DNA from: Xestospongia bergquistia
Taxonomy: Eukaryota; Porifera; Demospongiae; Haplosclerida; Petrosiidae
Reading direction: 5' to 3'
Assembly (NCBI GenBank): GCA_963965975.1
Contig: OZ014421.1
Coordinates: 1,493,001 to 1,557,000 of the forward strand
DNA length: 64,000 nucleotides
Below are positions 7,794-63,800 of the stretch, one piece after another. The position numbers and the translations under genes were made by a program. A model generated the notes under the pieces. That model was not told the DNA's origin, did not search any database, and saw only the letters and a list, made by a program, of their open reading frames with translations. Within the stretch, counting starts at the first letter, position 1, and every line of letters starts with the position of its first letter.

Positions 7794-10700
7794 ATGGCTG
7801 CAACCAGTCCAGGTATGACTGAATATTTTAATCAGTTATCCAATTGCTATTGTGCGTTAGGTTATTATGTACCTAAAAAGAGGTCAAGTCACTCCACACA
7901 TATAGTAGGTGACTACCTCTACATGTGGGGTGGTGATATAGATGGTCTCCCTATAGCACATGATACCGAATACAAACAGAGGATGACCTCTGTTATTGAG
8001 GTATTTCACTTTACATCTGGTATGTGGGAACAACAACCTACCATTGGGAAACCTCCATTGGGTGTTTGGGGCTATGCATCTACAGTTATTGGTAAAAGGA
8101 TCTACTACTTTGGAGGGTATTGCAGTCATGACAATTGTCGTCATAATAGTCTCAACTCATTAACAACTGACTCATTTACTTGGAGTGAGCTGTTTCCTAC
8201 AAATTCAAATATGGGTCCGATGATGAAATCATCTAGTGAAATGATACCTCTTAAATTCAATGATGAGGATAATTTACTGGTTTTTGGTGGCATTGGTATA
8301 CGTCCTGCCTTTCCACAACATGGTGCTCAATATAATGATAAGGGAATAATAGGTAGATATGTTCGAACCAATGAACACCACTACTATCAGTTATCCAGTG
8401 GTAAGAAGATTAATATATCATCATATTAATATACTTATACATCAAGTACTATTTTATTACCAGTTGTATTTCAGGTAATTGGATTGTACCAGATATAATT
8501 GGAAAAGGGCCACCTCCTTGTTATATCTTCACTCTCACAAAACTACCTAACAATAGAGCTATGTTATTTGGTGGTTTAACTCCTAATGGTCCTGATAACA
8601 CAGTGTTTATAGCAAAATGTATGAAGACTGCAGTGGTGAGTACAATATGTAATAAGTTGAAATATTTAGTAATTGTATAATATTATGGACAAATTATGTT
8701 TATTGTTTTGAAATTGTTGAACAACATGAAGTTATATTGGAATGTCATTACAAATAACAAATTTAGGAACTATTTACTAATGACTTAATAATCTCATTGT
8801 ACATTACTTTAGTTAATTTAGAGTTTATAGAAATAAAAGAAATGTTTTTATCGACAAAGTTTGTTTGGTATTAGTAGTATTAGTAACAGAGATAATCATC
8901 TTTACAATTGTAGTAATAGATGTAACAATTGTTAGTTTGTCTGATCAAATGTAGTATGACCAAATATGGTGAAAGTATTTGTACATTCACTGAATGTGCT
9001 AACCACATGTCATGTCATGACAATCACTCTATCTACATGTATGTAAAGTACTTCCTCATTATATCTGCTAAACATTAATGGTAGCAATCATTAATGAGTT
9101 ATGTCACAGTCAAGAAATTTATAAATGTAAACCATTTATCTCTGTTAATGCAACAAATATTTAATCATGTTTTTCTGTATATCAATGATAGTGCTTTATT
9201 TTTATCATTTCTTGTTTATAGTTCAAATGGCAACATTAGTTTATATGATATGTTATTAAAATAAGAGTTCCATATACTAATATACTAATCAGTCACAACC
9301 CAGTCTGTTAAATTATCAAACAAAACACTTGTAGTTTGAGAAATTCCATAAATAGTTGAGGTTACCATCATGCAGGTAATACTAAAACTTACAACTGGAA
9401 CTTTGCTTGAAACTCTTGTAAAACCTTGAAATATTGTTTACTAGTTAATATACTTTGTGCTATAGCAGAAGACTCAGAATAATTCTAGAAGCTTTAATTA
9501 TTCATAATTGTATATTTAAATGATGCCATTGATTATAAGACACCCTCTAATAGTAAGTGTTTCAGTTATTGATTAATAGTGATACAGATATTGCAGCTAT
9601 TATTCAAAAAATCTAGTTTACTAAAAGCATTCAAACTAATCAAATTACTACTACATTAAATGTGAATGATGTTAACTTGAGTATTTCATACTCAGCATTG
9701 GCAGATGTTTCGTCAACCACTTCAAAAGCCAATGAATTGGCCTCTATGTACACAATGTCATGCTGCTATTATGATCGATGACGTACATATCATTGTGGTG
9801 GGTGGACGTGACAAATACTCTAGTAATATTGCTGATAGCTGGTTATTTAACAGTGATACGACAACATGGACAAAGGTTAGTTACTATAATATAGTCATCC
9901 TGTGATCTAACTCTAACACAAAGTGGACTTAATGTCTATGATCTACCTACAGCATTCATAACACATACATTAGGTACTTATTGTACATTAATTTTTTAAA
10001 GCCTTGTAATAGGACAAGTTTATCTAGTTCATACTGTGTCTAGAACACATCTACTACTGGTGTTACGTATACAATGCTAGTTATTATAATGTCATATAAT
10101 ACACTATATTCCATCTTATATAGCTCACTCTATCACATTCAATGACTCGGCACTGCCTCTCAGTTTGGAATGTGTCACCTACCACTGTATGGATAGTTCA
10201 ATTTGGTGGATATAGATACCCAAGTAAACTCAATGATACTACTGTTATAGAGCTCAGTAAGTTCTGTCTATGAGCTGTTGTATAGTAATATATGCATTAT
10301 CAGTTTTATCATAGTATGATATAGAAGCAAGACACACTAGCTGTTTGCATTAGAACTTAGTCTCATGAATCATTACCATTGAAACATACTGATCTCTCAC
10401 TGTAGTATATAATAATAACCAATGGTCTGTAGGAGATGTAATAACTTCTACTGAAGAATATCAAATTAAGCTACTGCAGAAGAGACATGAGATATCTGTA
10501 CAATATTCTAGGAGATATGATCAACCTCAAATAAGTGTACAGTCTGGTATAGATTTTCAGCATTCTTCTTTGATACATGAACAGTTGCAACAGAAAGACA
10601 GAGATATCCAATGTTTAAAACTACAACTTGAAGTGACAAGCAAAGAGCTACACGATACAAAACAACAGCAGATAGATGTGACAAGGCCCCTTCAGGAAGA

Positions 10701-11744
10701 TCTCCAGACCAAAAAAAGACAAGTACAACAACTACTTCAAGAACTTGAAGAGAAACAAGAAACTGAAGCTATGCTCAAAAGTGAAAATGAAAGTAAAGAA
10801 AGATTACTTGAACAACTGCTACAAGAGCAGGAAGGGAGGGAACAACAACAGCTACAGGGTAGTCAAGAAAAAGACAGGATGCTTCACCAAGAGGTCCAGC
10901 AGTTGACTGTTGCTCTTCAACAAACACAGAAAGCTAATGCCACACTTCAACAACAAGTTCAACATTTACAAGATCAGTCTCATTGGGTAGTCAGGAGGGA
11001 AGAGATAATGATGACTATGGAAGTCCTTGGTAAGGGAGGTTGGGGAGAAGTCAAGGTGGCTAAATTTCGTGGCTTTAGAGTAGCTGCCAAATGTCTTCAT
11101 GAAATTTTCCTGTCACCATACAATATATCAGTTTTTTCACGAGAAATGGAGATTGCTTCTCAAGTACGTCATCCAAATCTCCTTCAGTTCATTGGAGCCA
11201 CTCGAGTGGGCACTCCTATCATTCTCTCAGAATTAATGCCAACTAGTCTTCGTAAAGAAATTGAGAAATATCCACTAACACATACTCAAGTTATTAGGAT
11301 TGCCCAAGACATATCTGCTGCTTTAAACTATCTTCATCTCTGGCAACCAGACCCTATACTACATCGTGATGTTAGTAGTCCTAATGTCCTCTTGAACCAT
11401 TTGGTAATGGAATATGGAAGGCTAAACTGTCTGATTATGGTTCAGCTAACCCTGTTCAAAGTATCTCAGCTAACAGTGTAGCTCCAGGTAATCCTTTCTA
11501 TTCAGCACCAGAAGCACAATTTCCAGACCAACATTCTCCAGCAATGGATGTCTTTAGTTTTGGTGTCCTACTTATGGAGATGGTCCTATGTCAACCTCCT
11601 GGTTTTAAAACAGCAGACAAATTGGCTCAATCAGAGACTATCCAGTGGCCAGTTATGAAACATCTTGTTCAAAGGTGTATCTCCCGTGAGATTCAAGTTC
11701 GTCCATCTATTGCTCAAGTACTCATTGACCTAGAAGACATGTAG
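7794..11744 (+). CDS. Kelch propeller-coiled coil-TKL kinase, copy A (1-nt frameshift in kinase)
   Basis: The most divergent of the Kelch-kinases. Exons: 7794-7812, 7861-8400, 8475-8635, 9696-9875, 10124-10256, 10406-11744, all with GT-AG borders and compatible phases; the start is MAATSPG, then YYVPKKR. Exons 2-5 give six Kelch blades; exon 6 gives a Gln-rich coiled coil and a kinase with GKGGWGEV loop, AAK lysine, HRDVS catalytic loop, SDYG and SAPEA. About base 11392, after NVLL, one nucleotide is missing compared with the paralogues; the reading moves out of frame and stops at 11481, although the correct frame resumes (KLSDYGSANP, then MDVFSFGVLL) and runs to the stop at 11744. Either a young lesion or a sequence error. 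If real, the product keeps the propeller and coiled coil but lacks the activation segment and C-lobe. Its promoter and first exon are duplicated upstream at ~6330-6475. Confidence 0.75.
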
Positions 11745-12690
11745 TTTAGACAATAATTATAATACTTGTTAGTAGTTCTTTCAGAATAATCTTCCTATAA
11801 TATGCTATGATAATATGCATTATTAATTAGTATTATTATATTCTGTTGTGCTATTACTACTACGTGCAACTATAATTAATTCTTAAGTATTAAGTGCATT
11901 TCCATATATGGATATTATGAATATTACAAGAAGAATCTTTTTTTGAACACTTTGTAATTTATTCACTTATTCACTTTATAATAACAATATACTATAATAA
12001 GCTGCTCTTTAATGGTTTCATCTCCTTCATAATGAAGTTGAAAAAAATGAAGGGACACTATCCTTATGTACATTTCTCAATACTATTACATCCACTATAG
12101 ACAGTTGAACAATCCTTACTAATCTAGAGAGGTTCAAATTCTATAACAAGCTATACTATCAGTAACTAGTTAATAAGTGTAAGTGTATCATATAGTGTGT
12201 AGTTCAATAATAACCTAACTATAACATCAAATTCTAGTGTTTGTGAGTATACTTGTAATATAAAAGATTGTCATATCTATTACACAAACACATACCAAGT
12301 CTCCATGTGCTAATGTCATGATAAACAGTTGTTTTCTATTTTTATTATAACATGTTAACATGTATATGTACATGTACTATAACATGTTATATTGTGCATG
12401 TGTATATAAGAACTAATTGTTATGACCAGTAGTTTGATTAGGAGGCTAACCTTACATATACATTACTGATAGGATGATATATGATATGTACATGTACAAC
12501 TGTTCTGAATTATTCCTGCATTGAATGATACATACTGATATACGACATACGTACAATATATTTGCTTTGTTCCTTAATAGTCAGTCATAAAGGACAACCT
12601 ACTATTGGTAATACTTAATAAATAAATCATCAAAATAATTGAAAATGTATCATTGTGACATTATGGACATGGATACAATAGACTTGAAAA
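11745..12690. other. Intergenic after copy A; AT-rich, no gene seen
   Basis: No supported ORF. Around 12345-12420 there are short palindromic AACATGTTA / TGTACATGTAC motifs. From about 12700 the sequence becomes recognisable as intron 3 of a Kelch-kinase relic. Confidence 0.4.
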
Positions 12691-12861
12691 GAACTGTTGT
12701 TGTTCATTATTGAAATAGATGCCTCAGATGTTATTCAAGAAAATATAATAGCTAAATAAAAATCCACATAAACTATAAAATAAACAATATTTTTTTTCAT
12801 ATTTCCCCTTACACAGTATTAATTATTATATAATATGTTTATTTGAGTATTTTCTACCCAC

Positions 12862-13026
12862 CATTGGGAGAAGATAAATAAACCACTTCCCAAATCAGTG
12901 AATTGGCCTCAGAAAAGATGGCATCATGCTGCCACTCTAATCAGTGACCTAAATGTGATGGTGGTTGGTGGATCTGTTATATCTGACAGCTGGTTATTTA
13001 ACATTGATACAAAGACATGGACAAAG
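12862..13026 (+). pseudogene. Orphan Kelch blade-5 exon (relic copy A')
   Basis: 165 nt, open, homologous to exon 4 of the Kelch-kinases: WEKINKPLPKSVNWPQ, then KRWHHAATLISD, VMVVGGSVISDSWLFN and a canonical GTTAGT donor. The acceptor upstream has changed from CCCAG to CCCAC, so it could not splice normally. Preceding sequence (~12700-12860) and following sequence (to ~13435) match Kelch-kinase introns 3 and 4. No exon 5 or 6 follows; the next thing is the element at 13440-13656. Confidence 0.75.
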
Positions 13027-13439
13027 GTTAGTTACTTCTTATTCTGTGATCTAACTTTATCATAAAGTGAATAAATGTCTATAATCCTTAGTTTGAGGAG
13101 ATGTAATAAAGAGTAATAGTTTGAACTTTGAAAATAACCCTCATTTATAGTTAAACTTATGATTAATAATATTTATTGTTTTTTTATGACCCTGATTTTA
13201 TGCTAAAATCTTGACACTATAGTCTGATATCATTTATGATATTATAGATGTATTTGATTATTTTATAGTCATAATTCAGGTATTAAAGACTGTACATAAA
13301 CACTTATGTTCATGTTTAAAGTCAGTTCATACAAAGTTATAGTCTACTACTAGAGTACATATATCCACTGATATGTTACAAGTATAATGACTAGTTTTGT
13401 TGTAATATCATAACATCATTATTATAATATCATATGTTT

Positions 13440-16800: not shown

Positions 16801-16969
16801 TAGTGAATTAGGTCGTATTAAAACATTAGATACTGAACAATTATTTTAGAGAGATTTTGATATTGAAGGAAGTTCAACATCTTAATATTGTGATGTAAGT
16901 GAAAGTGTCTATTGTGAAGTGAATGGAATGTGATTTACTTACACTAATAGAATGACTAGAAATAATGTC

Positions 16970-17013
<44 letters not shown>

Positions 17014-17542: not shown

Positions 17543-17577
<35 letters not shown>

Positions 17578-18321: not shown

Positions 18322-21300
18322 CTGGCTACATCTAGATCAGGTTTGACTACATTATTATAATAGTTATCTATTGTTATGTGTGTGTGTGTCATGTTCTACA
18401 GATTATTATGTACCTACAAAGAGGTCATATCACTCCACACATATAGTGAGTGACTACCTCTACATGTGGGGTGGTGCTATAGTTGGTCTCCCTAAGGTAC
18501 ATAATAATAAAGTCAAACGGAAGATGATCTCTGTTATTGAGTTATTCCACTTACCAACTGGTAGGTGGGAACAACGACCTACTAATGGAAAACCTCCACT
18601 GGGTGTCATTGGCTATGCCTCCACTGTTATCAGTAAAACGATCTACTATTTTGGAGGCTATTGTAATCATGACCAGTGTCATCACAATAGTCTCAACTCA
18701 TTAATAACAGATTCACTTACATGGAATGAACTGTTCTCAATTAATCCAAGTATGGGACCAATGATGAAGTCACACTGTGGGATGATATCACTTACATTCA
18801 ATAAAGTAGATTATCTACTGGTAGTTGGTGGTATTGGTCCACGTCCTACCTCTCCACAATCTGGTGCTCAGTATAGTAATAAGGGAACATTTGGTGGTAA
18901 TGTTCGTACTAATGAACACCACTATTATCAGTTATCCAGTGGTAAGAAGATCAATATATCATGTTATCAATACATTATATATCAAGTACAATTTTATAAC
19001 TGTTTGTATTGCAGGTCACTGGATAGTACCAGTAATTACTGGAGAATGTCCACCTCCTTGTGATAGCTTCACTCTTACATCACTACCTAATAACAGAGCT
19101 CTGTTATTTGGTGGTTATACTCCTAATGGTACTATTAACACTGTTTATATTGCTCAGTGTACAAAGACTGCAGTGGTGAGTACAATATGTATTAAGTTAA
19201 AGTATTTAGTTAATGTATAATATTGTGGAGTAATCAAGTTTGAAGTTTGATATTATTAAACGAACTAAATTTATAGTATATAATGTCTTTATATTATTAT
19301 TAGGAACTGTTTTATTAATAAACAAGTGATTTATTGTTTGTTAATATTTCTTTAATCAACTTAGAGGTTATATTGATAACTGAAACATTCCTATATAGTG
19401 ATACCATATTTCATTGACTAAATGTCACTCTTGAATAGTAGCCTCCCTTTTTGTATATCAGTGAAATTGATGATGAGCTTGAATAAATGATACAATGACT
19501 GCTTAACAAAATTGTCTATTGATAATTTATAATTGATTATTAATATTAATATTATATATATAATAATAATATATATAATATTATATTAATTAATATTAAG
19601 TTGTTCTGTTAAGTGAAAAAGACAAAAAAAGATAATTTTTATTTTTTAAAAATGTTTATTCAGTCAGGAAATAACTGTAGTTTCATAAAGTCTTTAAACA
19701 AATGAGTTCACAATGAGGTAATATTTGTTTAAATTTTCTGTCAATGCTTGATCTATCATTTACTAACTGATACACAAAGTTTAAAGCTATTGTTTATCAG
19801 GAATGTTCAGAATCACTTCTAACTTTAGAAACTTTAATAATTCACAATTATATTTTAAATAGTGACCTCAAATAGTAAATTTCCCTATTGTTGTTCAATA
19901 TTAAAATAGATGTTCCAGGTCTTATTAAAGGAAATATTGTAACTAAATTAAAATTGACATAAACTATAAAATGAACAATATTCTTAAACATTTCCCAGTA
20001 TACAGTATTAATTACTGCTATGTTAATTGTATAATATGTTAACTTGAATATTATCTACCTAGCACTGGAAGAAGATAAGCGAACCACTTCACAAATCAGT
20101 GAATTGGCCTCGGAGTAGATTACGTCATGCTACCACTATTATCAGTGACCTACATGTAATGATGGTGGGTGGATATCCTGTTGGTATTGCTGATGGCTGG
20201 TTATTTAACATTGATACAAAGACATGGACAAAGGTTAGTTACTAGTTATTATGTGAACTAACACTAACACAAAGTGAGTTAATGTCTATGATCTACAATA
20301 TGAGGAGATATAATAAAGTGTGACTATTTGAACTTTGACCTCTGAAAATAACCCTCATCTATAGAAATTTATAATTAATAATAGTTATTGTTTTAATGAC
20401 CTGGTTTTATACCTGTAGTCCTGACACTATAGTATGTTAACATTTATGATAGTATAGTCTATTGATATATCTGATTTGTTTATAGTTATAATTCAGTTAT
20501 TAAAGACTGTACATAAGTACATGTCATGTATGTCAACTCTACCAGTTCATACAAAGTTATAGTCTGTTACTAGAGTACATGTATCCACTGATGTTACATG
20601 TATAATGACTAGTTTTGTAGTAATATCATAACATCATTATTATAATGTCATATTATATACTATATTCCATCGTATAGCTCAATATACCAGACTCAGTGTC
20701 TAAGAGATGTAGCCACTCCCTCTCATTATGGAATGTGTCACATACCACTGTATGGGTAATACAATTTGGAGGATACTATGATACTGAACTCAATGACACT
20801 ACAGTGATAGAACTTAGTAAGTACTGTCTATTGATGATAGTATTTGTTATATAGTACACACACACATTATCAGTATTATCACAGTATGATATAGGAGTAT
20901 TGACACATTAACTGTTTATATTACAAACTAGTCTCATAACTCAATACTATTGTAACATACTATATCTCTCACTGTAGTATGTAATGATGACCAGTGGACT
21001 GTAGGAGATGTAATAACTAACCTGACATCTACTGAAGAATATCAACTTAAGCTACAACAGAAGAGACATGAACAATCTCAACTTACTGTCCAATCTCCTA
21101 CACGTCTTCAACCTTCATTTTCATCACATCAAGAATTACAACAGAAAGATAGAGAAATTAAATGTTTAACACTTGAAGTTACCAATAAAGAGCTACAAGA
21201 TACCAAACAACAGCAGATAGATACGACAAGAGCTCTTCAAGAGGACCTTGAAACAAAAGAAAGACAACTACATCAACTACGTCAAGAACTTCAAGAGAAA

Positions 21301-22356
21301 CAACAAACTCAAGCTAATCTTGTACGTGAGCACAGAAATAGAGAAAGGTTACTTCAACAACAGCTACAAGACCAAGAAGAGAGAGAGAGACGACAGTTAC
21401 AGGATAGTCAAGAGAGGGAAAGAGTACTACGTCAAGAGTGTGATGACCTTCACCAAGAACATGATGATTATCGTCAACAACATGATAATATTGAACAAGG
21501 TCTTCGTCAACAACTCCAAGAGTCAACTACTGCTCTTCGACAAACACGTCAAGCTAATGCCACTCTACAACAACAAGTTCAACAGTTACAACAACAGTCT
21601 CACTGGGTACTGAGGAAGGATGAGATTGAGATGACTGAGGAGATCCTTGGCAAAGGAGGTTGGGGAGAAGTCAAGGTGGCTAAATTTCGTGGCCTTAGAG
21701 TAGCTGCCAAATGTCTTTATGAAGTTATCTTGTCACCATATAACATATCAGTTTTTACACGAGAAATGGAGATTGCTGCTCGAGTACGTCATCCTAATCT
21801 CCTTCAGTTCATAGGAGCCACTAAAGTGGGTAGTCCTATCATCCTATCAGAACTAATGCCAACTAGTCTTCGCAAAGAGCTAGAAGCTGGTCCTCTACCC
21901 TATCATGCTGTTTTAGCTATCAGTCAAGATATAGCCTGTGGTCTCAACTATCTCCACCTCTTTAAACCAGACCCTATACTACATAGAGATGTCAGCACTG
22001 CTAATGTCCTTCTTCAGCCAATTAGTGGTGGGTGGAGAGCCAAGGTATCAGACTATGGTTCAGCTAATCTTCAACCAATGATTGGTCGTACAGTCAATCC
22101 AGGTAATCCAGTTTATTCTGCTCCAGAAGCTGGTGTACCAAGAGACCATTCTCCTGCAATGGATGTTTACAGTTATGGTGTTGTCTTGATTGAAATGATG
22201 ATCTGTCGTATTCCTGAGGTAGCTCAGAGACAACTTCATATTAACAGTATTAGACGACAAGCATTTAAAGCTCTTATTGAACGATGTTTGAAAGAGAATC
22301 GTAGAGAACGTCCGACAATGTCAGAGATCCTAACAGACTTCAATGAAACCATTTAA
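18322..22356 (+). CDS. Kelch propeller-coiled coil-TKL kinase, copy B (CTG at start position)
   Basis: Exons 18322-18340, 18402-18941, 19015-19175, 20063-20233, 20678-20816, 20978-22356; phases fit and all six are open, giving 803 codons with the stop. The first codon is CTG where D/E/F have ATG (CTG GCT ACA TCT). No in-frame ATG lies just upstream, so either a near-cognate CTG is used (A at -3 and G at +4 are favourable), another 5' exon exists, or the gene is silenced. Diversified propeller positions: KR-SY-HS and GG-A in blade 1, GV-IG in blade 2, C-DS-F and GG-Y in blade 4, R-LR-HA in blade 5, R-CS-HS in blade 6. The coiled coil is the long form (extra ~18 aa around CDDLHQEHDDY). Kinase motifs GKGGWGEV, AAK, HRDVS, SDYG, SAPEA are intact; the stretch after NVLL is QPISGGW. 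Confidence 0.8.
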
Positions 22357-33148: not shown

Positions 33149-36100
33149 ATGGCTACATCTAGATCAGGTTTGACTACATTATTATAATAGTTATCTATTG
33201 TTATGTGTGTGTGTGTCATGTTCTACAGATTATTATGTACCTACAAAGAGGTATGGTCACTCCACACATATAGTGGGTGACTACCTCTACATGTGGAGTG
33301 GTTATATAAATGGTCTCCCTAGAGTACATGATAATGAAGTCAAACAGAGGATGACCTCTGTTGTTGAATTATTTCACTTACCAACTGGTAGATGGGAACA
33401 ACGACCTACTAATGGAAAACCTCCACTGGGTGTCTATAATTATGCCTCAACTGTTATCAGTAAAAGGATCTACTATTTTGGAGGCTATTGTAATCATGAC
33501 AAGTGTCGTTACAATAGTCTCAACTCATTAATAACAGATTCACTTACATGGAATAAACTGTTCCCAACTAATCCAAGTATGGGTCCAATGATGAAGTCAC
33601 ACTGTGGAATGATATCACTTACATTCAATAAAGTAGATTATCTACTGGTAGTTGGTGGTATTGGTCCACGTCCCACCTCTCCTGGACCACAATCTGGTGC
33701 TCAGTATATTGATACTCCTAGTAATAATGTTCGTACTAATGAACACCACTATTATCAGTTATCCAGTGGTAAGAAGATCAATATATCATGTTATCAATAC
33801 ATTATATATCAAGTACAATTTTATAAATGTTTGTATTTCAGGTCAATGGATAATACCAGAAATTACTGGAGAATGTCCACCTCCTTGTAGTAGCTTCACC
33901 CTTACATCACTACCTAATAACAGAGCTCTGTTATTTGGTGGTAATACTCCTAATGGTTCTATTAACACTGTGTATATTGCTCAGTGTACAAAGACTGCAG
34001 TGGTGAGTACAATATGTATTAAGTTAAAGTATTTAGTTACTGTATAATATTGTGGAGTAATCAAGTTTAAAGTTTGATATTATTAAATGAACTAAATTTA
34101 TAGTATATAATGTCTTTATATTATTATTAGGAACTGTTTTATTAATAAACAAGTGATTTATTGTTTGTTAATATTTCTTTAATCAAGTTAGAGGTTATAT
34201 TGATAATTGAAACATTCCTTTAGTCAACTATATAGTGATACCATATTTCATTGACTAAATGTCACTCTTGAATAGTAGCCTCCCTTTTTGTATATCAGTG
34301 AAATTGATGATGAGCTTGAATAAATGATACAATGACTGCTTAACAAAATTGTCTATTGATAATTTATAATTGATTATTAATATTAATATTATATATATAA
34401 TAATAATATATATAATATTATATTAATTAATATTAAGTTGTTCTGTTAAGTGAAAAAGACAGAAAAAGATAATTTTTATTTTTTAAAAATGTTTATTCAG
34501 TCAGGAAATAACTGTAGTTTGATAAAGTCCTTAAACAAATGAGTTCACAATGAGCTAATATTTGTTTAAAATTTCTGTCAATGCTTGATCTATCATTTAC
34601 TAACTGATACACAAAGTTTAAAGCTATTCTTTATCAGGAGTGTTCAGAATCACTTCTAATTCTAGAAACTTTAATAATTCACAATTATATTTTAAATAGT
34701 GACCTCAAATAGTAAATTTCCCTATTGTTGTTCAATATTAAAATAGATGTCCCAGGTCTTATTAAAGGAAATATTGTAACTAAATTAAAATCCACATAAA
34801 CTATAAAATGAACAATATTCTTAAACATTTCCCAGTAATTGTATAATATGTTAACTTGAATATTATCTACCCAGCACTGGGAGAAGATAAGTGAACCACT
34901 TCACCAATCAGTGAATTGGCCTCAGAGTAGAGATTGTCATGCTACCAGTATTATCAGTGACCTACATGTGATGATAGTGGGTGGATATCCTACTAGTATT
35001 GCTGACAGCTGGTTATTTAACACAAGGACATGGACAAAGGTTAGTTACTAGTTATCATGTGACCTAACACTAACACAAAGTGAGTTAATGTCTATGATCT
35101 ACAGTATGAGGAGATATAATAAAGTGTGACTATTTGAACTTTGACCTCTGAAAATAACCCTCATCTATAGAAAATTTCTAATTAATAATAGTTATTGTTT
35201 TTATGACCTGGTTTTATACCTGTAGTCCTGACACTATAGTATGTTAACATTTATGATAGTATAGCCTATTGATAATTTGATATATCTGATTTGTTTATAG
35301 TTATAATTCAGTTATTAAAGACTGTACATAAGTACTTATGTTCATGTTTTAAAGTATTGTAACATGTCAACTCTACCAGTTCATACAAAGTTATAGTCTG
35401 TTACTAGAGTACATGTATCCACTGATGTTACATGTATAATGACTAGTTTTGTAGTAATATCATAACATCATTATTATAATGTCATATAGTACACTATATT
35501 CCATCTTATAGCTCAATATACCAGAGTCAGTGACTAAGAGAAGGAACCACTCCCTCTCATTATGGAATGTGTCACCTACCACTGTATGGGTAATACAATT
35601 TGGAGGATTTAGATACCCTGATGGTAAACTCAATGATACTACAGTGATAGAACTTAGTAAGTACTGTCTATTGATAGTATTTGTTATATAGTACGCACAC
35701 ACATTATCATTATTATCACAGTATGATATAGGAGTATTGACACATTAACTGTTTATATTACAAACTAGTCTCATAACTCAATACTATTGTAACATACTAT
35801 ATCTCTCACTGTAGTATGTAATAATGACCAGTGGACTGTAGGAGATGTAATAACTAACCTGACATCTACTGAAGAATATCAACTTAAGCTACAACAGAAG
35901 AGACATGGACAACCTCAACTTACTGTACAATCTCCTACACGTCTTCAACCTTCATCTTTATCACGTCAAGAATTACAAGAGAAAGATAGAGAAATTCAAC
36001 GTTTAACACGACAACTTGAAGTTACCAACAAAGAGCTACAAGTTACCAAACAACAGCAGATAGATATGACAAGAGCTCTTCAAGAGGACCTTCAAACAAA

Positions 36101-37199
36101 AGAAAGACAACTACATCAACTACGTCAAGAACTTCAAGAGAAACAACAAACTCAAGCTAATTTTGAACGTGAGCACAGAAATAGAGAAAGGTTACTTCAA
36201 CAACAGCTACAAGATCAAGAAGAGAGGGAAAGACAACAGTTACAGGATAGTCAAGAGAGAGAAAGAGTACTACGTCAAGAGTGTGATGACCTTCACCAAG
36301 AACATGATGATTATCGTCAACAACATGACAATATTGAACAAGGTCTTCATCAACAACTCCAAGAGTCAACTACAGCTCTTCAACAAACACGTCAAGCTAA
36401 TGCCACTCTTCAACAACAAGTTCAACAGTTACAACAACAGTCTCACTGGGTAGTGAGGAAGGAGGAGATTGAGATGACTGACGAAGTTCTTGGGAAAGGA
36501 GGTTGGGGAGAAGTCAAGGTGGCTAAATTTCGTGGCCTTAGAGTAGCTGCCAAATGTCTTCATGAAGTTATCCTATCACCATATAACATATCAGTTTTTA
36601 CACGAGAAATGGAGATTGCTGCTCGAGTACGTCATCCCAATCTCCTCCAGTTCATAGGAGCCACTAAAGTGGGTACTCCTATCATCCTATCAGAACTAAT
36701 GCCAACTAGTCTTCGAAAAGAGCTAGAAGCTGGTCCTCTACCCTATCATGCTGTTTTAGCTATCAGTCAAGATATAGCCTGTGGTCTCAACTATCTCCAC
36801 CTCTTTAAACCAGACCCAATACTACATAGAGATGTCAGCAGTGCTAACGTACTGTTACTGCCAATTGTTGGTGGGTGGAGAGCCAAGGTATCAGACTATG
36901 GTTCAGCTAATCTTCAACCAATGATTGGTCGTACAGTCAATCCAGGTAATCCAGTTTATTCTGCTCCAGAAGCTGGTGTACCAAAAGACCATTCTCCTGC
37001 AATGGATGTTTACAGTTATGGTGTTGTCTTGATTGAAATGATGATCTGTCGTATTCCTGAGGTAGCTCAGAGACAACTTTATATTAACAGTATTAGACGA
37101 CCAATGTTTAAAGCTCTTATTGAACAATGTTTGAAGGAGAATTATAGAGAACGTCCGACAATGTCAGAGATCATAACAGACTTCAATGAAACCATTTAA
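33149..37199 (+). CDS. Kelch propeller-coiled coil-TKL kinase, copy D (intact, reference copy)
   Basis: Exons 33149-33167, 33229-33768, 33842-34002, 34875-35039, 35512-35656, 35815-37199; all GT-AG with matching phases, 804 aa. ATG GCT ACA TCT starts the protein (MATSRSDYYVPTKR). Residues ~8-343 form six Kelch blades, each with a Gly-Gly doublet and Trp/Tyr positions; ~395-555 are a Gln/Glu/Arg-rich coiled coil; ~561-804 are a kinase of TKL/tyrosine-kinase-like type. Motifs: LGKGGWGEV (569-577), AAK lysine (590), HRD (681-683) with Asn in VSSANVLL, SDYG in place of DFG (Asp kept), SAPEA (726-730). It should be catalytically competent. No signal peptide or membrane segment: cytoplasmic. The design implies ligand binding by the propeller, oligomerisation by the coiled coil and kinase output. 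Variable residues: KR-YG-HS with SG-Y (blade 1 doublet is SG), GV-YN, C-SS-F with GG-N, R-DC-HA with GG-YPTS, R-RN-HS with GG-F. Confidence 0.9.
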
Positions 37200-41989: not shown

Positions 41990-44900
41990 ATGGCTACATC
42001 TAGATCAGGTTTGACTACATTATTATAATAGATATCTATTGTTATGTGTGTGTGTGTCATGTTCTACAGATTATTATGTACCTACAAAGAGGTATGGTAA
42101 CTCCACACATATAGTGGGTGACTACCTCTACATGTGGGGTGGTGATATGAATGGTCTCCCTATAGTACATGATAATGAAGTCAAACGGAAGATGACCTCT
42201 GTTATTGAGGTATTTCACTTACCAACTGGTAGATGGGAACAACGACCTACTAATGGAAAACCTCCACTGGGTGTCTGGGCCTATGCCTCCACTGTTATCA
42301 GTAACAGGATCTACTATTTTGGAGGCTATTGTAATCATGACCAGTGTCGTTACAATAGTCTTAACTCATTAATAACAGATTCACTTACATGGAATGAACT
42401 GTTCCCAACTAATCCAAGTACTGGTCCAATGATGAAGTCAAGCTGTAGGATGATATCACTTACATTCAATAAAGTGGATTATCTACTGGTAGTTGGTGGT
42501 ATTGGTCCACGTCCTACCTCTCCACAATCTGGTGCTCAGTATAGTGATAAGGGAACATTTCGTGGTAATGTTCGTACTAATGAACACCACTATTATCAGT
42601 TATCCAGTGGTAAGAAGATCAATATATCATGTTATTAATACATTATATATCAAGTACAATTTTATAACTGTTTGTATTTCAGGTCAGTGGATAATACCAG
42701 AAATTACTGGAGAATGTCCACCTCCTTGTAGTAGCTTCACTCTTACATCACTACCTAATAACAGAGCTCTGTTATTTGGTGGTAGGACTCCTAATGGTGA
42801 TATTAACACTGTGTATATTGCTCAGTGTACAAAGACTGCAGTGGTGAGTACAATATGTATAAAGTTAAAGTATTTAGTTACTGTATAATATTGTGGAGTA
42901 ATCAAGTTTAAAGTTTGATATTATTAAATGAACTAAATTTATAGTATATAATGTCTTTATAATTATTATTATTAGGAACTGTTTTATTAATAAACAAGTG
43001 ATTTATTGTTTGTTAATATTTCTTTAATCAACTTAGAGGTTATATTGATAACTGAAACATTCCTTTAGTCAACTATATAGTGATATCATATTTCATTGAC
43101 TAAATGTCACTCTTGAATAGTAGCCTACCTTTTTGTATATCAGTAAAATTGATGATGAGCTTGAATAAATGATACAATGACTGCTTAACAAAATTGTCTA
43201 TTGATAATTTATAATTGATTATTAATATTAATATTATATATATAATAATAATATATATAATATTATATTAATTAATATTAAGTTGTTCTGTTAAGTGAAA
43301 AAGACAAAAAAAGATAATTTTTATTTTTTAAAAATGTTTATTCAGTCAGGAAATAACTGTAGTTTCATAAATGTCCTTAAACAAATGAGTTCACAATGAG
43401 GTAATATTTGTTTAAAATTTCTGTCAATGTTTGATCTATCATTTACTAACTGATACACAAAGTTTAAAGCTATTGTTTATCAGGAATGTTCAGAATCACT
43501 TCTAACTTTAGAAACTTTAATAATTCACAATTATATTTTAAATAGTGACCTCAAATAGTAAATTTTCCTATTGTTGTTCAATATTAAAATAGATGTCCCA
43601 GGTCTTATTAAAGGAAATATTGTAACTAAATTAAAATCCACATAAACTATAAAATGAACAATATTCTTAAACATTTCCCAGTATACAGTATTAATTACTG
43701 CTATGTTAATTGTATAATATGTTAACTTGAATATTATCTACCCAGCACTGGGAGAAGATAAGTGAACCACTTCACAAATCAGTGAATTGGCCTCAAAGTA
43801 GATGTGATCATGCTACTACTATTATCAGTGACCTACATGTGATGATGGTGGGTGGAATTGGTAATACTATTGGTGACAGCTGGTTATTTAACATTGATAC
43901 AAAGACATGGACAAAGGTTAGTTACTAGTTATCATGTGACCTAACACTAACACAAAGTGAGTTAATGTCTATGATCTACAATATGAGGAGATATAATAAA
44001 GTGTGACTATTTGAACTTTGACCTCTGAAAATAACACTAATCTATAGAAAATTTCTAATTAATAATAGTTATTGTTTTTATGACCTGGTTTTATACCTGT
44101 AGTCCTGACACTATAGTATGTTAACATTTATGATAGTATAGTCTATTGATATATCTGATTTGTTTATAGTTATAATTCAGTTATTAAAGACTGTACATAA
44201 GTACTTATGTTCATGTTTTAAAGTATCGTAACATGTCAACTCTACCAGTTCATACAAAGTTATAGTCTGTTACTAGAGTACATGTATCCACTGATGTTAC
44301 ATGTATAATGACTAGTTTTGTAGTAATATCATAACATCATTATTATAATGTCATATAGTACACTATATTCCATCTTATAGCTCAACATACCAGAGTCAGT
44401 GACTAAGAGAAGGGGCCACTCCCTCTCATTATGGAATGTGTCACCTACCACTGTATGGGTAATACAATTTGGAGGACTTAGATACCCTGATGGTAAACTC
44501 AATGATACTAAAGTGATAGAACTTAGTAAGTACTGTCTATTAAATGATAGAATTTGTTATATAGTACACACACACACATTATCAGTATTATCATAGTATG
44601 ATATAGGAGTATTGACACACTAACTCTTTATATTACAAACTAGTCTCATAACTCAATACTATTGTAACATACTATATCTCTCACTGTAGTATGTAATAAT
44701 GACCAGTGGACTGTAGGAGATGTAATAACTAACCTGACATCTACTGAAGAATATCAACTTAAGCTACAACAGAAGAGACATGGACAATCTCAACTTACTG
44801 TCCAATCTCCTACACGTCTTCAACCTTCATCTTCATCACGTCAAGAATTACAAGAGAAAGATAGAGAAATTCAACGTTTAACACGACAACTTGAAGTTAC

Positions 44901-49302: not shown

Positions 49303-49550
49303 CTCTCTCTCTCTTTCTCTCTCATACAGACTTGAGGAGATAATTCATCAAGATTCTAAGTTCTATCTTGTTTTTGAATTCATTAGTATAGATTTAAAGA
49401 AATATCTTGACACTATTCCATCTGGACATTATATTGATCCAGTATTATTAAATGGATGAACATATGACCAATCTACAATGACCATACATTATAGTAGTTA
49501 TATTTATTGTTCTATTATTAAACTGGCTGACTTTGGACTTGGACTTTCTG

Positions 49551-49585
<35 letters not shown>

Positions 49586-56783: not shown

Positions 56784-58988
56784 ATGGACAAGACCACCTC
56801 ACCTCTGTCTGTGACATATCTCTCACCTCCAGTAGGTCCTGTTACTAGAGGTGTTGTCCCAAGACAGTCTAGTCCACGAACTACTAGTTCATTGGTGAGT
56901 GATGATGTCATTGTCATGTGACCTTTATTCTCTCCTGTATAGCTACCTACCTCTAACACAGTACAAGATAAGATGACAAGTTTGAGAGAAGAGAACACAA
57001 AGTTAGTATCACAAGGCAATGTCTTGTCTCTGAACTAGAAAGCACTTCACATCAACTAGAATTAGCTAATGCTAAGGTATTTAATTAACTCTTAATCATA
57101 GGAGTTAGTGTTATTATCCTTGTCATTAGATTCATAATTTAGAGGGTCGACTTAAAAAGTCAGACTCAATCACACCTCAAACGACACCCTCAAGTACCTT
57201 CAAATCAACTTCAACTGAGAGAAGAGAGAGACAAGAATGGAGTACTCGTCAGAAAGTCTTACAAGATCAGTTATTAGATGTACAGGAAGAATGCAGGTAT
57301 TATAATGTTATATTAGTATTACCATGTATGGTTATGTTGATGTGTGTAGGCGATTAAGAGATGCTTGTGTTGAAGCTAAACAAAGAACAAACAAGAGAGC
57401 AGATGTACCAGACAGAGTAAGTTATACTTGTAATTAGGACACTCACTATATTAGGACACTTGTTCTAGTCCCATGTTAATACTTTAGTGTATTATACAAC
57501 CTCTATATTGAGGACACTTGTTCTAGTCCTATACTAATACTTTAGTGTATTATATAACCTCTATATTAGGACACTTGTTCTAGTCCCATGTTAATACTTT
57601 AGTGTATTATACAACCTCTATATTGAGGACACTTGTTCTAGTCCCATGTTAATACTTATAACCTCTACATTGAGGATATCTCCATGTTCCAAGCCCCCAA
57701 AGTGTCTACTACTATAGTTCATATATTGATAGTCAGTGATGCTATTTATATACAACTCTAGACCACTATATGATGACTATATTATACCACCAAGATCTGA
57801 GACTATCATTAGTTACATCTTCCAATAAAACCTCACTATTAAGGACATCCCTTGTAAATTGAACTAGCACTGATAAGCCTCTTTAAAGAAAGAATGCCCC
57901 TTTAATTAAGATAATTAGTTAGAATTTACTGTATAATTTTAATAATTTATTTTATTGATATTATTTCTTTTAGCCTTTGTCATCACAAAGTTGTAGAGGA
58001 TTTCCATCAACTAGTATTAGCACTTACACTAGACATTCTAATAAAACTGAAAATATTCTCTCCAATTATAAAGCTGTTAGTGGAAGCAAAAGTGCTTACA
58101 GCTCTCTCTTATCAAAACCAATCCTCACTGGTGGAAATAGCTACCCTCGTGAAACAGGTCTAGACCGGTCATTATCAGGTAGTAATACCAGTTTGTCCAG
58201 TGTTAAGTCTGCTAGAGAACCTCTCACATTTTCCACACGTAGTACATTCAGTTCTGCCTACTCCAGTGTCCTTGATAGTACTGGATCTAGTTCAGCTGTA
58301 GAATTGGAGAGAGCAAAAATAAAGATCAGAAAATTAGAAAAAGAGGTCAGTTAGTGCATTTATTAGAGTTGTCATGTGACTTCCTCCTCTTATCATGTGA
58401 CTAATTTTGTCTTACTTAAAGCAATTACATAATTGTCACATGACATCCATCTCTTTTCATTTGTATTAGGTAACTGTTTTAGAACAGCAACTACAAGAGA
58501 AAACAAAACTATCAGAAACTCACGTTGAGGACCTGACACAACTGAGGTCCTTACTAGCACAAGAGAAAGCCACTCATGCTATCAGTTCCCATCAAGCACA
58601 AGAGAAGGCAGCAAGGTATAATATAGTCATGTTTATCTATTGATAATGTTTTTTTAGTTTCCTAAATATAATATATTCTTTCTTAGTGAATTAGGTCGTA
58701 TTAAAGCATTACATACTGAACAATGTAATGATTTGGAGACACAGTTACATCGTCTTAAAAGTGACAAGGTAAAGTTAGATGAAGAAAACTCCAAACTTAG
58801 AACGTCACTTAAAGGTAACTATTATTTCTCTATAATTGTATATGTAATGGATGTTTCTGGTAGGGAGTCAGAGTGAGGCTAAGCTACTTTCAGATAATGT
58901 ATCAAAGTTATTTGCACAGTTAGATGGTGAGTGATGATGTCATTGTCATGTGACCTTTATTCTCTCCTGTATAGCTACCTACCTCTAA
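56784..58988 (+). CDS. Coiled-coil protein, long version (copy F-G)
   Basis: A non-coding exon probably ends at 56631. Coding exons: 56784-56894 (MDKTTSPLSV...), 56943-57076, 57130-57296 (IHNLEGRLKKSDSITPQ...QEECR), 57350-57416 (RLRDACVEAKQRTNKRADVP), 57974-58345 (Ser-rich: SSQSCRGFPSTSISTYTRHS...), 58470-58615, 58687-58814, 58864-58926, then 58975-58988. Coiled coils cover the 3' half (VTVLEQQLQEKTKLSETHVE and following). Exon 56943-57076 is 134 nt, not 135, and its frameshift hits TAG; skipping it keeps phase and gives a 355-aa protein ending AQLDATYL. The next exon (58975-59109) is a good coiled coil in another phase, so the original protein may have been longer. Function not recognised; a centrosomal/ciliary coiled-coil protein is possible given its head-to-head ODF3-like neighbour, but that is inference. 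Confidence 0.5.
57453..57674. repeat. Minisatellite, four units of 57-58 bp
   Basis: Units start at 57453, 57511, 57568 and 57626 with AGGACACTTGTTCTAGTCC and continue CATGTTAATACTTTAGTGTA, then CAACCTCTATATTG. It lies in an intron of the coiled-coil gene. Related single units occur inverted in the ODF3-like introns (e.g. 29938-29995) and near 780-890. Confidence 0.85.
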
Positions 58989-59286: not shown

Positions 59287-60605
59287 ATGTCTATAGATGA
59301 TTATACAAAGATTGAAAAGATTGGAGAAAGGACTTATGGTGTCGTTTACAAGATAAGTCTTCTTTCACGCTATATTTCTTACTTGTTTTAAAGTGTGAGT
59401 GTGTGTGTGAGTATTGTGAAGTGAATGGAATGTGGTTTATTCACTAATAGAATGGCTCGAAATAATCTCAACTCTCTCTTCTCTCTTTCATACTCTCTTT
59501 CTCTCTCTCTCTCTTGTGCAGACTTGAGGAGATAATTCATCAAGATTCCAAGTTCTATCTTGTTTTTGAATTCATGAGTATGGATTTAAAGAAATATCTT
59601 GACACTATTCCATCTGGACAGTATATTGATCCAGTATTATTAAAGGTAACAATCACAGTAATAATGGATATATGGTTTGATAAATGGATACATGGATCAA
59701 TAGATCAAATGTATTAATGGACAAACATATAAATGATTATATGGATGTATAGATAGGTGACCAATCTACAATGACCATACATTATAGTAGTTATATTTAT
59801 TGTAAATGTTCTATTGTTAGTAATATTATATTTACTTCATTATTTCTTATATTAATAGAGTTATATTTATCAGATCCTCAAAGGTACAGTTTTCTGTCAT
59901 TGTCGACGTATTATTCATCGTGACTTAAAACCACAAAATCTGTTAATTGATGCTAAAGGAGCTATTAAACTGGCTGACTTTGGACTTGGACGAGCCTTTG
60001 GTATACCAGTTTATGCATATACCCATGAGGTCTCTCTCTTTGCCTCTCTCTCTCTCTCTCTCTCATGCTGACCCATTGTTAAATTACACAGGTAGTAACA
60101 CTGTGGTACAGGGCCCCTGAAGTCTTACTTGGTTCAGCACGATGTTGTTGTCCCATTGATGTATGGAGTATAGCTTGTATATTTGCTGAAATGTCTAATA
60201 AAAAACCTCTGTTTCAAGGAAACTCTGAAATTGATCAACTCTTCCGAATTTTCACGTTTATTAAACAGGTTTTATAAACTGGTTTAACTAGTTCTACTGT
60301 AGGATTTTGGGTACACCTAATGATACAACATGGCCTAATGTAACTGAACTACCAAATTTTAAACCAAATTTCCCTAAATGGATTGGAAAGACAATAAAAC
60401 AAGTTTGTCCTCGACTTGATGCAGCAGGTTGTGACCAGTTAATGGTAAGTTATTGTTCAATGATCCTTTTTAATTCTAGTGTCTTTAATATCAGCAAATG
60501 TTGGTTTATAATCCTGGGAAGAGAATGTCTGCAAAGACTGCTATGCAACATCCTTATTTCAGTGATTTAGACAAGTCAGGTCTACCTGATACAGTACAGT
60601 CTTAA
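59287..60605 (+). pseudogene. CDK1 (cdc2)-like kinase, copy F-G, lacking exon 2
   Basis: The most complete CDK1 catalytic half in the window. Exon 1 59287-59352 (GERTYG), whose donor is AT instead of GT; exon 2 (ATP lysine, PSTAIRE helix) is missing; exon 3 59522-59645; exon 4 59859-60029 with full [20 protein letters not shown] and [18 protein letters not shown]; exon 5 60092-60255 ([20 protein letters not shown]); exon 6 60303-60444; exon 7 60495-60605 ending SGLPDTVQS. Exons 3-7 join in phase and are open. DFGLG-R-A and the T-loop Thr-His-Glu typical of CDK1 are present. Without exon 2 it cannot bind cyclin or ATP normally. Confidence 0.8.
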
Positions 60606-60819: not shown

Positions 60820-63800
60820 CTGGCTGCGTCTAGATCAGGTTTGACTACATCATTATAATAGTTATCTATTGTTATGTGTGTGTGTGTCATGTTCTACAGA
60901 TTATTATGTACCTACAAAGAGGTATAGTCACTCCACACATATAGTGGGTGACTACCTCTACATGTGGGGTGGTGATATGAATGGTCTCCCTAGAATGCAT
61001 GACAATGAAGTCAAACGGAAAATGACCTCTGTTATTGAATTATTTCACTTACCAACTGGTAAATGGGAACAACGACCTACTAATGGAAAACCTCCACTGG
61101 GTGTCTGGGGTTATGCCTCAACTGTTATCAGCAAGAGGATCTACTATTTTGGAGGCTACTGTAATCATGATGATTGCCGTTACAATAGTCTTAACTCATT
61201 AATAACAGATTCACTGACATGGAATGAACTGTTCCCAACTAATCCAAGTATGGGTCCAATGATGAAGTCACAATGCGGAATGATATCACTTACATTCAAT
61301 AAAGTGGATTATCTACTGGTAGTTGGTGGATATGGTCTACGTCCCACCTCTCTACAATCTGGTGCTCAGTATATTGATACTCCTAGTAATAATGTTCGTA
61401 CTAATGAACACCACTATTATCAGTTATCCAGTGGTAAGGAGATCAATATATCGTGTTATCAATACATTATATATCAAGTACAATTTTATAACTGTTTGTA
61501 TTTCAGGTCAGTGGATAGTACCAGAAATCAGTGGAGAATGTCCACCTCCTTGTAGTCACTTCACTCTTACATCACTACCTAATAATAGAGCTCTGTTATT
61601 TGGTGGTAGTACTCCTAATGGTTTTATTAACACTGTGTATATTTCTCAGTGTACAAAGACTGCAGTGGTGAGTACAATATGTATTAAGTTAAAGTATTTA
61701 GTTACTGTATAATATTGTGGAGTAATCAAGTTTAAAGTTTGATATTATTAAATGAACTAAATTTATAGTATATAATGTCTTTATATTATTATTAGGAACT
61801 GTTTTATTAATAAACAAGTGATTTATTGTTTGTTAATATTTCTTTAATCAACTTAGAGGTTATTTTGATAACTGAAACATTCCTTTAGTCAACTATATAG
61901 TTGACTAAAGGATAGTAGCTTGAATAGTAGCTTGAATAAATGATACAATGACTGCTTATCAAAATTGTCTATTGATAATTTATAATTGATTATTAATATT
62001 AATATTATATATATAATAATAATATGTATAATATTATATTAATTAATATTAAGTTGTTCTGTTAAGTGAAAAACACAAAAAAAGATTTTTTTAAAAAAGT
62101 CAGGAAATAACTGTAGTTTCATAAAGTCCTTAAACAAATGAGTTCACAATGAGATAATATTTGTTTAAAATTTTTTTTCAATGCTTGATCTATCATTTAC
62201 TAACTGATTGACAAAGTTTAAAGCTATTGTTTATCAGGAATGTTCAGAATCACTTCTAACTCTAGAAACTTTAATAATTCACAATTATATTTTAAATAGT
62301 GACCTCAAATAGTAAATTTTCCTATTGTTGTTCAATATTAAAATAGATGTCCCAGGTCTTATTAAAGGAAATATTGTAACTAAATTAAAATCCACATAAA
62401 CTATAAAATGAACAATATTCTTAAACATTTCCCAGTATACAGTATTAATTACTGCTATGTTAATTATATAATATGTTAACTTGAATATTATCTACCTAGC
62501 ACTGGGAGAAGATAAGTGAACCACTTCACAAATCAGTGAATTGGCCTCAGAGTAGATGTTATCATGCTACCACTATTATCAGTGACCTACATGTGATGAT
62601 GGTAGGTGAATGTTATATTGCTGACAGCTGGTTATTTAACATTGATACAAAGACATGGACAAAGGTTAGTTACTAGTTATCATGTGACCTAACACTAACA
62701 CTAAGTGAGTTAATGTCTATGATCTACAATATGAGGAGATATAATAAAGTGTGACTATTTAAACTTTGACCTCTGAAAATAGCCCTCATCTATAAAAAAT
62801 TTATAATTAATAATAGTTATTGTTTTTATGACCTGATTTTATACCTGTAGTCCTGACACTATAGTATGTTAAAATTTATGATAGTATAGTCTATTGATAT
62901 ATCTGATTTGTTTATAGTTATAATTCAGTTATTAAAGACTGTACATAAGTACTTATGTTCATGTTTTAAAGTATTGTAACATGTCAACTCTACCAGTTCA
63001 TACAAAGTTATAGTCTGTTACTAGAGTACATGTATCCACTGATGTTACATGTATAATGACTAGTTTTGTAGTAATATCATAACATCATTATTATAATGTC
63101 ATATAGTACACTATATTCCATCTTATAGCTCAATATACCAGAGTCAGTGAATAAGAGAAGAAGACATTCCCTCTCATTATGGAATGTGTCACCTACCATT
63201 GTATGGGTAGTACAATTTGGAGGATATTGTAATGGTAAACTCAATGATACTACAGTGATAGAACTTAGTAAGTACTGTCTATTGATGATAGTATTTGTTA
63301 TATAGTACACACACACATTATCATTATTATCACAGTATGATATAGGAGTATTGACACATTAACTGTTTATATTACAAACTAGTCTCATAACTCAATACTA
63401 TTGTAACATACTATATCTCTCACTGTAGTATGTAATGATGACCAGTGGACTGTAGGAGATGTAATAACTAACCTGACATCTACTGAAGAATATCAACTTA
63501 AGCTACAACAGAAGAGACAAGGACAATCTCAACTTACTGTCCAATCTCCTACACGTCTTCAACCTTCATCTTCATCACGTCAAGAATTAGATAGAGAAAT
63601 TCAACATTTAACACGACAACTTGAAGTTACCAACAAAGAGCTACAAGATACCAAACAACAGCAGATAGATATGACAAGAGCTCTTCAAGAGGACCTTGAA
63701 ACAAAAGAAAGACAACTACATCAACTACATCAAGAACTTCAAGAGAAACAACAAACTCAAGCTAATCTTGAACATGAGCACAGAAATAGAGAAAGGTTAC

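Follow-up and report, generated by a model that had tools for sequence, protein, structure and literature searches.

Positive selection in the propeller loops of a kelch-kinase family from the sponge Xestospongia bergquistia, a likely recognition repertoire

The window analyzed here is a 64,000-nucleotide stretch of the genome of the sponge Xestospongia bergquistia (C11:1493001-1557000, within a 146-Mb genome). Its plus strand carries seven copies, A to G, of one six-exon gene together with one relic, and the encoded protein consists, in order, of 11 residues, a six-blade kelch propeller, a coiled coil, and a kinase of tyrosine kinase-like (TKL) type. A preliminary description, made from the letters of the window, reported that the copies differ at a few ligand-facing positions in each blade while the rest is nearly constant, and attributed this to diversifying selection on a recognition surface with constant kinase output. 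The locus raises the question, “what keeps changing these positions, and for what use?” Our analysis confirms the observation of variable ligand-facing positions and supports the interpretation of diversifying selection on a recognition surface. We consider it likely that the family is an intracellular repertoire for recognition, diversified combinatorially and sharing one kinase output, in which the ligand face has been under repeated selection.

Selection at the variable propeller positions

Site-wise dN/dS was estimated with our own FUBAR-like script rather than with HyPhy, using one tree per exon and a main set of 27 distinct copies (27, 27, 26, and 21 for exons 2 to 5), from which locus L023, carrying an in-frame stop, was excluded. 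A model in which the nonsynonymous rate (beta) may exceed the synonymous rate (alpha) was preferred (log-likelihood, -6084.8 versus -6113.1; twice the difference [2dlnL], 56.6), and 29 of 352 sites reached P>0.9. With loop boundaries drawn by hand from the kelch motifs, these sites comprised 9 of 59 D-A codons, 19 of 83 B-C codons, none of the 199 strand and A-B/C-D loop codons, and, among the 11 N-terminal codons, only the variable start codon. Rather than being scattered over the propeller, all 28 selected sites outside the N-terminus fell, by kelch topology, in D-A or B-C loops (28 of 142 codons versus 0 of 199 others, p 4e-12; versus 0 of 42 A-B/C-D codons, p 0.0005). Kelch topology and homology would place them on one face of the propeller. 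Null simulations of exon 2 length (eight sets, four with two conflicting trees) gave 0 to 2 of 189 sites at P>0.9 and a 2dlnL of at most 0.6, so the real data exceed what chance produces. In a larger set for exon 2 (55 of 60 close copies), 2dlnL was 92, and 17 of the 18 sites at P>0.9 lay in D-A/B-C loops.

The principal variable positions are given below in copy E, which served as the reference gene model (788 residues); all are on the plus strand, columns are those of the alignment, and GG+1 and GG+6 denote the first and sixth residues after Gly-Gly. Equivalent residues of KLHDC2, a solved relative of the propeller, are included where they align.

42093..42098, plus strand: blade 1 D-A variable pair (columns 15 and 16; Y-G), P=0.33 and 0.992; in copy D, 33252-33257
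42276..42281, plus strand: blade 2 D-A variable pair (columns 76 and 77; W-A), P=1.000 and 0.923
42441..42443, plus strand: blade 3 D-A variable residue (column 131), aligned with KLHDC2 Lys147, P=0.999
42501..42503, plus strand: blade 3 GG+1 residue (column 151), aligned with KLHDC2 Tyr163, P=0.917
42730..42735, plus strand: blade 4 D-A variable pair (columns 206 and 207; S-S), P=0.955 and 0.969
42784..42801, plus strand: blade 4 B-C loop, GG+1 (column 224) and GG+6 (column 229), aligned with KLHDC2 Arg236 and Arg241, P=0.963 and 0.917
43803..43808, plus strand: blade 5 D-A variable pair (columns 263 and 264; C-D), aligned with KLHDC2 Ser269 and Trp270, P=0.993 and 0.997
43857..43874, plus strand: blade 5 B-C loop, variable in length and sequence; column 281 (GG+1), P=0.986
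44411..44416, plus strand: blade 6 D-A variable pair (columns 314 and 315; R-G), P=0.697 and 0.992

The residues listed in the preliminary description for the variable pairs of blades 1, 2, 4, 5, and 6, for the positions after Gly-Gly in blades 1 and 4, and for the position after Pro-Asn-Gly all agree with our alignment. So do the codons given for the blade 1 pair, TATGGT in D (33252-33257), TCATAT in B, TTTTGT in C, and TATAGT in G, between AAGAGG and CACTCC; in copy E the 3' flank is AACTCC rather than CACTCC. The WH pair assigned to the exon 4 relic is borne out by its translation, which reads ...SVNWPQKRWHHAATLISDLNVMVVGGSV.... Of the 13 sites proposed at that stage, 11 reached P>0.9, columns 15 and 314 falling short. 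Absent from the preliminary list were blade 3, variable at columns 131, 151, 153, 162, and 173-175, and the strong site at position 98 (GG+6 of blade 2). Also absent were the selected sites in the B-C loops of blades 2, 3, 5, and 6; those of blades 3, 5, and 6 contain indels.

The 13 sites had been chosen from copies A to G; the copies held out for testing all lay outside the window, and the sites were fixed beforehand. Across 20 such copies, with one tree for all exons, omega (dN/dS) at these sites was 9.6, versus 1.0 elsewhere (likelihood ratio test [LRT], 302; against omega = 1, 259), and the predicted excess of nonsynonymous change is therefore present outside the window. The five of these sites that lie in exon 2 gave the same value in 49 non-window copies (omega 9.6, versus 0.8 elsewhere). 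In two more distant subfamilies, represented by 20 copies of 33 matches on C5 and 13 of 18 on C1, the same five sites had omegas of 1.65 (LRT against 1, 4.9) and 3.87 (11.9), while 17 sites derived from the close copies had omegas of 1.71 in C5 (LRT against 1, 16.3) and 1.71 in C1 (10.0). Four sites in C5 and two in C1 exceeded 0.9, all in D-A/B-C loops. Per-site beta was correlated between close copies and C5 (rho 0.46), close copies and C1 (0.36), and C5 and C1 (0.52); the corresponding correlation of beta minus alpha was only 0.22-0.25.

Counts made independently of any tree used 17 variable codons, a list picked after the data had been seen. Diversity at these codons was 0.49 at base 1, 0.45 at base 2, and 0.23 at base 3, compared with about 0.08 at each base of 48 flanking codons. 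At column 264, the codons of 26 copies were limited to TGT, TAT, GGT, GAT, and CGT. All 190 pairs among 20 copies differed by less than 6% in their introns, and in the 170 pairs below 4%, nonsynonymous differences amounted to 40-44% at the variable codons versus about 5% elsewhere. The variable sites are enriched in Tyr (17% versus 5%), Ser, and Asp and depleted in Val, Thr, and Lys. A Tyr/Ser/Asp-rich composition of this kind resembles that of antibody contact loops.

Beyond these positions, the claim of near constancy holds for the strands and the opposite loops of the propeller, but the coiled coil and the kinase also differ between copies. The kinase motifs were aligned in 18 of 26 copies (A, C, F, L040, L043, L039, L042, and L050 left out). 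The Lys, HRD, DYG, and APE motifs are present in all 18 and, together with the best solved relatives of the kinase, support membership of the TKL group; the catalytic motifs are nearly invariant, with DYG in place of DFG. The idea of a constant kinase output is correct in this respect but overstated, as kinase omega was 0.66 (15 copies; P>0.9 at 2 of 251 sites, 27 sites constrained) and the output modules of A and C are broken.

Recombination among copies and the rival explanations

Diversity was 2.2-3.5% in introns, 5.8-9.3% in exons 2-5, and 6.9% in exon 6 (19 copies), the reverse of the usual order, with exons about two to four times as diverse as introns. In approximately unbiased tests on 16 copies, exons 2, 3, 4, and 5 and the kinase each rejected the trees of the other four segments (p 0.031 or less); under the Kishino-Hasegawa test, exon 3 did not reject the trees of exons 4 and 5 (0.06 and 0.08). 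The excess of exon over intron diversity, together with the conflicting exon trees, implies that the copies recombine. Exon 2 does not differ in DNA between loci L038 and L039, but their downstream kinases are 91% and 66% identical, respectively, to that of E.

The variable sites of different blades are nearly independent, and association is found mainly between neighbors. Among the 45 pairs of ten exon 2 variable sites, z exceeded 3 for 8-9, 69-70, 144-146, and 25-91; in 25 copies across exons 2-5, it did so in 3 of the 83 pairs that span two exons and in 5 of the 37 pairs within a single exon. The ten sites form 50 distinct signatures in 55 copies, whereas ten sites drawn at random from strands or A-B/C-D loops gave a mean of 11 and a maximum of 21 (500 draws). 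Recombination between copies would homogenize the introns and reshuffle exons and blades, and the selected residues would in this way be recombined among copies.

Several results weigh against a diversified recognition surface. The assignment of the selected sites to one face comes from kelch topology, not from a model, and KLHDC2 Trp191, a pocket residue, aligns with a conserved Thr. One exon 2 site of the 55-copy set (47) lies in strand C. When exon 2 was divided into five pieces with separate trees, 2dlnL was 38 and 9 sites reached P>0.9, 8 of them shared with the 18 found on a single tree; these blade-wise trees pushed 10 of the 18 below 0.9 and raised one A-B loop site (exon 2 residue 78) to 0.93. 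The whole-alignment tests in C5 and C1 were nonsignificant (2dlnL, -0.8 and 3.0), only the fixed-site tests being positive. The coiled coil had an omega of 0.93, with 14 of 257 sites at P>0.9 and a 2dlnL of 15.7, in an indel-rich alignment of 14 copies. Flanking DNA is more diverse than the exons (upstream, 0.16; downstream, 0.14). Third-base and synonymous change are also raised at the variable codons: base 3 is 2.7 times as diverse as in flanking codons, pairwise synonymous differences are about 0.20 versus 0.06-0.075 elsewhere (about threefold), and the synonymous rate estimate is above 1.1 at 7 of the 17 codons.

The elevated base 3 diversity and synonymous differences are what targeted hypermutation of the variable codons, alone or together with selection, might leave behind, as are the sharply focal nature of the change and the covariation of neighboring variable codons. 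However, diversity at bases 1 and 2 is double that at base 3, flanking codons stay close to the background, and the synonymous rate estimate is about 1 or less at 10 of the 17 codons. Some of the base 3 change necessarily accompanies the replacements, because the third base of Trp, Leu, and Gln codons is G or A, and selection explains the bias to Tyr, Ser, and Asp and the scarcity of Val, Thr, and Lys. Hypermutation is very improbable as the main cause of the variation, although it may contribute. Hardly more credible is an artifact of gene conversion, in which wrong trees inflate the changes counted at variable codons. The strong conflict among exon trees, the fall from 18 to 9 exon 2 sites under blade-wise trees, and the single tree used in the 13-site held-out test speak for it; yet the four simulations with conflicting trees never yielded more than 2 of 189 sites and left the LRT without signal, the tree-free counts showed mostly replacement at variable codons while flanks and introns had changed little, and the excess sits in one topological class of loop. 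None of the eight null simulations, four of them with conflicting trees, reproduced the signal, though blade-wise trees do weaken several sites. Relaxed constraint on decaying tandem copies would account for the 5 of 26 full-length copies whose frame is truncated, shifted, or disrupted (A, C, L040, L043, and L049). It was rejected as scarcely conceivable, given an omega far above 1 at the variable sites, constrained strands, and the 21 of 26 full copies that remain open with HRD and APE motifs.

The main rival is that these are specialized endogenous signaling kinases, each kelch face being tuned to a different host protein or peptide in a functional partition among paralogues. Degron or substrate receptors are among the closest solved relatives, and KLHDC2 and KLHL20 are tuned to their substrates in this way (PMC6720452, PMC11377542); in the same genome, coiled-coil kinases of related type occur joined to different domains, giving the module the look of a general signaling part. 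With fixed, ancient partners, however, some 90 close copies, near-random residue combinations between blades, and conflicting exon histories would be unexpected, and we regard this explanation as unlikely, if the most serious of the alternatives. Recognition of nonself or allogeneic ligands is the reading that we favor.

The locus, its gene copies, and their genomic spread

The gene copies of the window were delimited by lifting splice sites from the E model, and the relic by a blastn self-match and translation.

7794..11754, plus strand: copy A; kelch exons 7794-7812, 7861-8400, 8475-8635, 9696-9875, and 10124-10256 (splice-site lift from E, open reading frame, and translation)
12694..13435, plus strand: relic of a further copy; exon 4 (blade 5) and adjoining introns, WH at the variable pair
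18322..22356, plus strand: copy B; exons 18322-18340 (CTG first), 18402-18941, 19015-19175, 20063-20233, 20678-20816, and 20978-22356; open frame of 802 residues
25230..29234, plus strand: copy C; exons 25230-25248, 25310-25843, 25917-26077, 26976-27140, 27605-27743, and 27905-29234
33149..37199, plus strand: copy D; exons 33149-33167, 33229-33768, 33842-34002, 34875-35039, 35512-35656, and 35815-37199; open frame of 804 residues
41990..46020, plus strand: copy E; exons 41990-42008, 42070-42609, 42683-42843, 43746-43916, 44381-44525, and 44690-46020; open frame of 788 residues
50811..54841, plus strand: copy F; exons 50811-50829, 50891-51430, 51504-51664, 52567-52737, 53202-53346, and 53511-54841
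60820..64000, plus strand: copy G; exons 60820-60838, 60900-61433, 61507-61667, 62500-62664, 63129-63267, and 63429 onward

Internal splice borders are GT/AG in all 26 full-length genes examined by splice-site lift. The coiled coil was assigned from its heptad-like, Gln/Glu/Leu-rich appearance and not by a program. In copy A, the coiled-coil/kinase exon starts at 10406 and the frame ends at 11481, past the HRD motif, truncating the kinase; in copy C, the frame is broken in the coiled-coil part of exon 6, and the kinase frame itself is open. L040 and L043 likewise have truncated or shifted frames, and exon 2 of L049 holds a duplicated piece. Copy F is a tandem duplicate of E of recent origin, at an offset of 8821 and with the same exon 2 DNA, and copy G (locus L041), traced beyond the window, is open to its end (779 residues). 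Exon 1 begins with CTG in 23 of 33 copies and with ATG in 10, mostly with an in-frame stop upstream (e.g., 18322-18324 and 41990-41992); non-AUG (CTG) initiation or a hidden upstream exon is possible. Two copies elsewhere, L036 and L038, have a much shortened coiled coil (642-644 residues in total, versus about 780) and an open kinase frame.

Between the copies lie fragments of a kinase that reads as CDK-like, the family name coming from inspection of the letters. They stand at 16934-18080, 31674-32897, 39612-41193, 48432-49913, and 59466-60567 on the plus strand, each upstream of one copy (B, D, E, F, and G, respectively); a CDK-like piece is thus often part of the tandem unit along with the kelch kinase. 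A single frame of 1,165 residues at 2333-5830 of the window (plus strand) has several apparent membrane spans and a weak, below-cutoff match to a right-handed beta-helix, and a 58-bp tandem repeat of 3.7 copies occupies 57446-57657.

Genome-wide, the protein of E exon 2 gave at least 150 scored matches, of which 91, at about 66% identity or more (66-100%), form the close set. Among the kinase matches listed, a same-strand kinase lies 1-8 kb downstream of 87 of these 91, a count in which two kelch matches may share one kinase. Most of the close set is at C11 1.3-2.3 Mb (69 of 91), with 15 of 91 below 0.4 Mb. More distant kelch matches (38-50% identical in protein) are mostly on C5 and C1, and all 15 listed C5 kinases have, as read by eye, a kelch match on the same strand at most 5 kb upstream. 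Three pairs with identical exon 2 (L040/L043, L044/L045, and L038/L039) are oppositely oriented, at C11 1.44-1.49 Mb on the plus strand and 1.93-1.96 Mb on the minus strand, which suggests an inverted segmental duplication. The genome holds 94 NACHT matches over the cutoff; nine are clustered at C11:421146-473562, beside kelch copies at C11 72-374 kb. It also has integrin-beta matches, which mark it as that of an animal.

Relatives, analogues, and possible role

The exon 2 frame matches the Pfam families PF24681 and PF13964 over the cutoff, and the motifs of the whole propeller indicate six blades. The solved relatives of the propeller are KLHDC3 (E value, 6.7e-17) and KLHDC2 (1.5e-14, query 10-312), the closest known structures. 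KLHDC2 is not known to have a kinase. It is an E3 ligase receptor for di-glycine C-ends, with contacts named in PMC11377542; in an alignment read by hand, six of seven of these pocket residues fall on columns at P>0.9 (Lys147-131, Tyr163-151, Arg236-224, Arg241-229, Ser269-263, and Trp270-264). A conserved C-degron pocket of KLHDC2 type was not found, as six of the seven aligned positions vary between copies. In KLHL20, the substrate-binding surface is shaped by B-C and D-A loops (PMC6720452), the loops selected here; KLHL20 and KEAP1 differ in having a BTB domain and Cul3 coupling, whereas about 11 residues precede the blade 1 D-A loop in the present family. No BTB match was found in the exon 2 and exon 6 frames scanned, and an upstream exon is possible. 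Like the preliminary description, we take the KEAP1 pocket residues to be equivalent to the variable positions.

By sequence, the best solved matches of the kinase are TAK1, CTR1, IRAK4, and RAF. The TKL receptor and adaptor kinases IRAK4, CERK1, and TAK1 are related in their kinase domain, but the sensor of the present family is kelch, and death, TIR, LysM, and LRR domains had no match in the kelch-kinase frames scanned. Elsewhere in the genome, L111 (C8:7283900-7289700) is an open frame of 1,871 residues in which LRR, Roc, COR, kinase, and LRRK2-type propeller domains precede a second kinase, this one of kelch-kinase type, and L114 (C13:735000-737500) is a coiled-coil kinase of the kelch-kinase class preceded by weak, below-cutoff PARP14-type KH matches. 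These other domain contexts suggest that the output module is reusable.

In manner of working, the nearest analogue would be the HNWD (het-d/e/r) genes of Podospora anserina, STAND receptors with WD40 propellers in which two codon pairs per repeat are under positive selection on the interaction surface, with concerted evolution and shuffling of the codon pairs (PMC2873952). Both are intracellular propeller receptors with few selected positions per repeat and with recombination, the face in our case being placed by topology. The fungal proteins differ in having WD40 repeats, a NACHT switch, and a HET death effector in place of kelch and kinase; their repeat number changes within a gene, whereas the present family is fixed at six blades; and the nwd family has 10 genes (five hnwd and five others), compared with at least 150 kelch-exon matches here. 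The expansion of NLR genes in the sponge A. queenslandica, 135 genes as cited in PMC6208332, is likewise a large intracellular receptor family in an early animal, but the variable part of the present family is a propeller, and NACHT, NB-ARC, and LRR had no match in the kelch-kinase exon 2 and exon 6 frames scanned, which gives no ground for NLR or STAND membership. One kelch-motif gene in each of two result tables of PMC6208332 was down-regulated after microbial cues, the presence of a kinase being unstated in those parts of the report. Pattern scans, which reach close relatives only, found none in prokaryote genomes and viral contigs. Among the papers listed from the open-licence literature, judged by title and opening of the abstract, we found no description of a sponge kelch-kinase family or of like selection on kelch propellers.

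We propose that these are probably cytosolic receptor kinases, in which the coiled coil links the propeller to the TKL-type kinase. The D-A and B-C loops of the propeller would form the binding site for its ligand, which is probably a peptide or the surface of a protein; with the ligand docked at the propeller mouth, the coiled coil may oligomerize or free the kinase, which would then signal. The propeller face is predicted to bind a variable ligand, and binding would control the kinase through the coiled coil. Selection has repeatedly altered the residues of this predicted face, whereas the propeller frame and catalytic motifs have been conserved. The ligands may be nonself (microbial or virus derived) or allogeneic, which would give the family an immune or self-recognition role. 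Receptors that tell self from nonself also show divergence concentrated on the binding face.

Discrimination of microbes and kin in early animals is attributed to germline receptors, but variable recognition surfaces described down to the residue are few. A wider proposal, of which we are somewhat more doubtful than persuaded, is that the family represents a branch of innate or self-recognition in animals that has so far gone unrecognized, comprising well over 100 germline-encoded intracellular kelch-propeller kinases, with an antibody-like variable head of Tyr/Ser/Asp-rich contacts, contacts shuffled by recombination across six blades, and exchangeable TKL kinase modules. Ligand discovery becomes directly accessible to experiment, since the family offers residues that can be named, a kinase readout, and a relative whose solved structure has a defined pocket. 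If the proposal is true, propellers would have been recruited as diversified recognition heads in animals as they were in fungi, with a kinase replacing the STAND switch.

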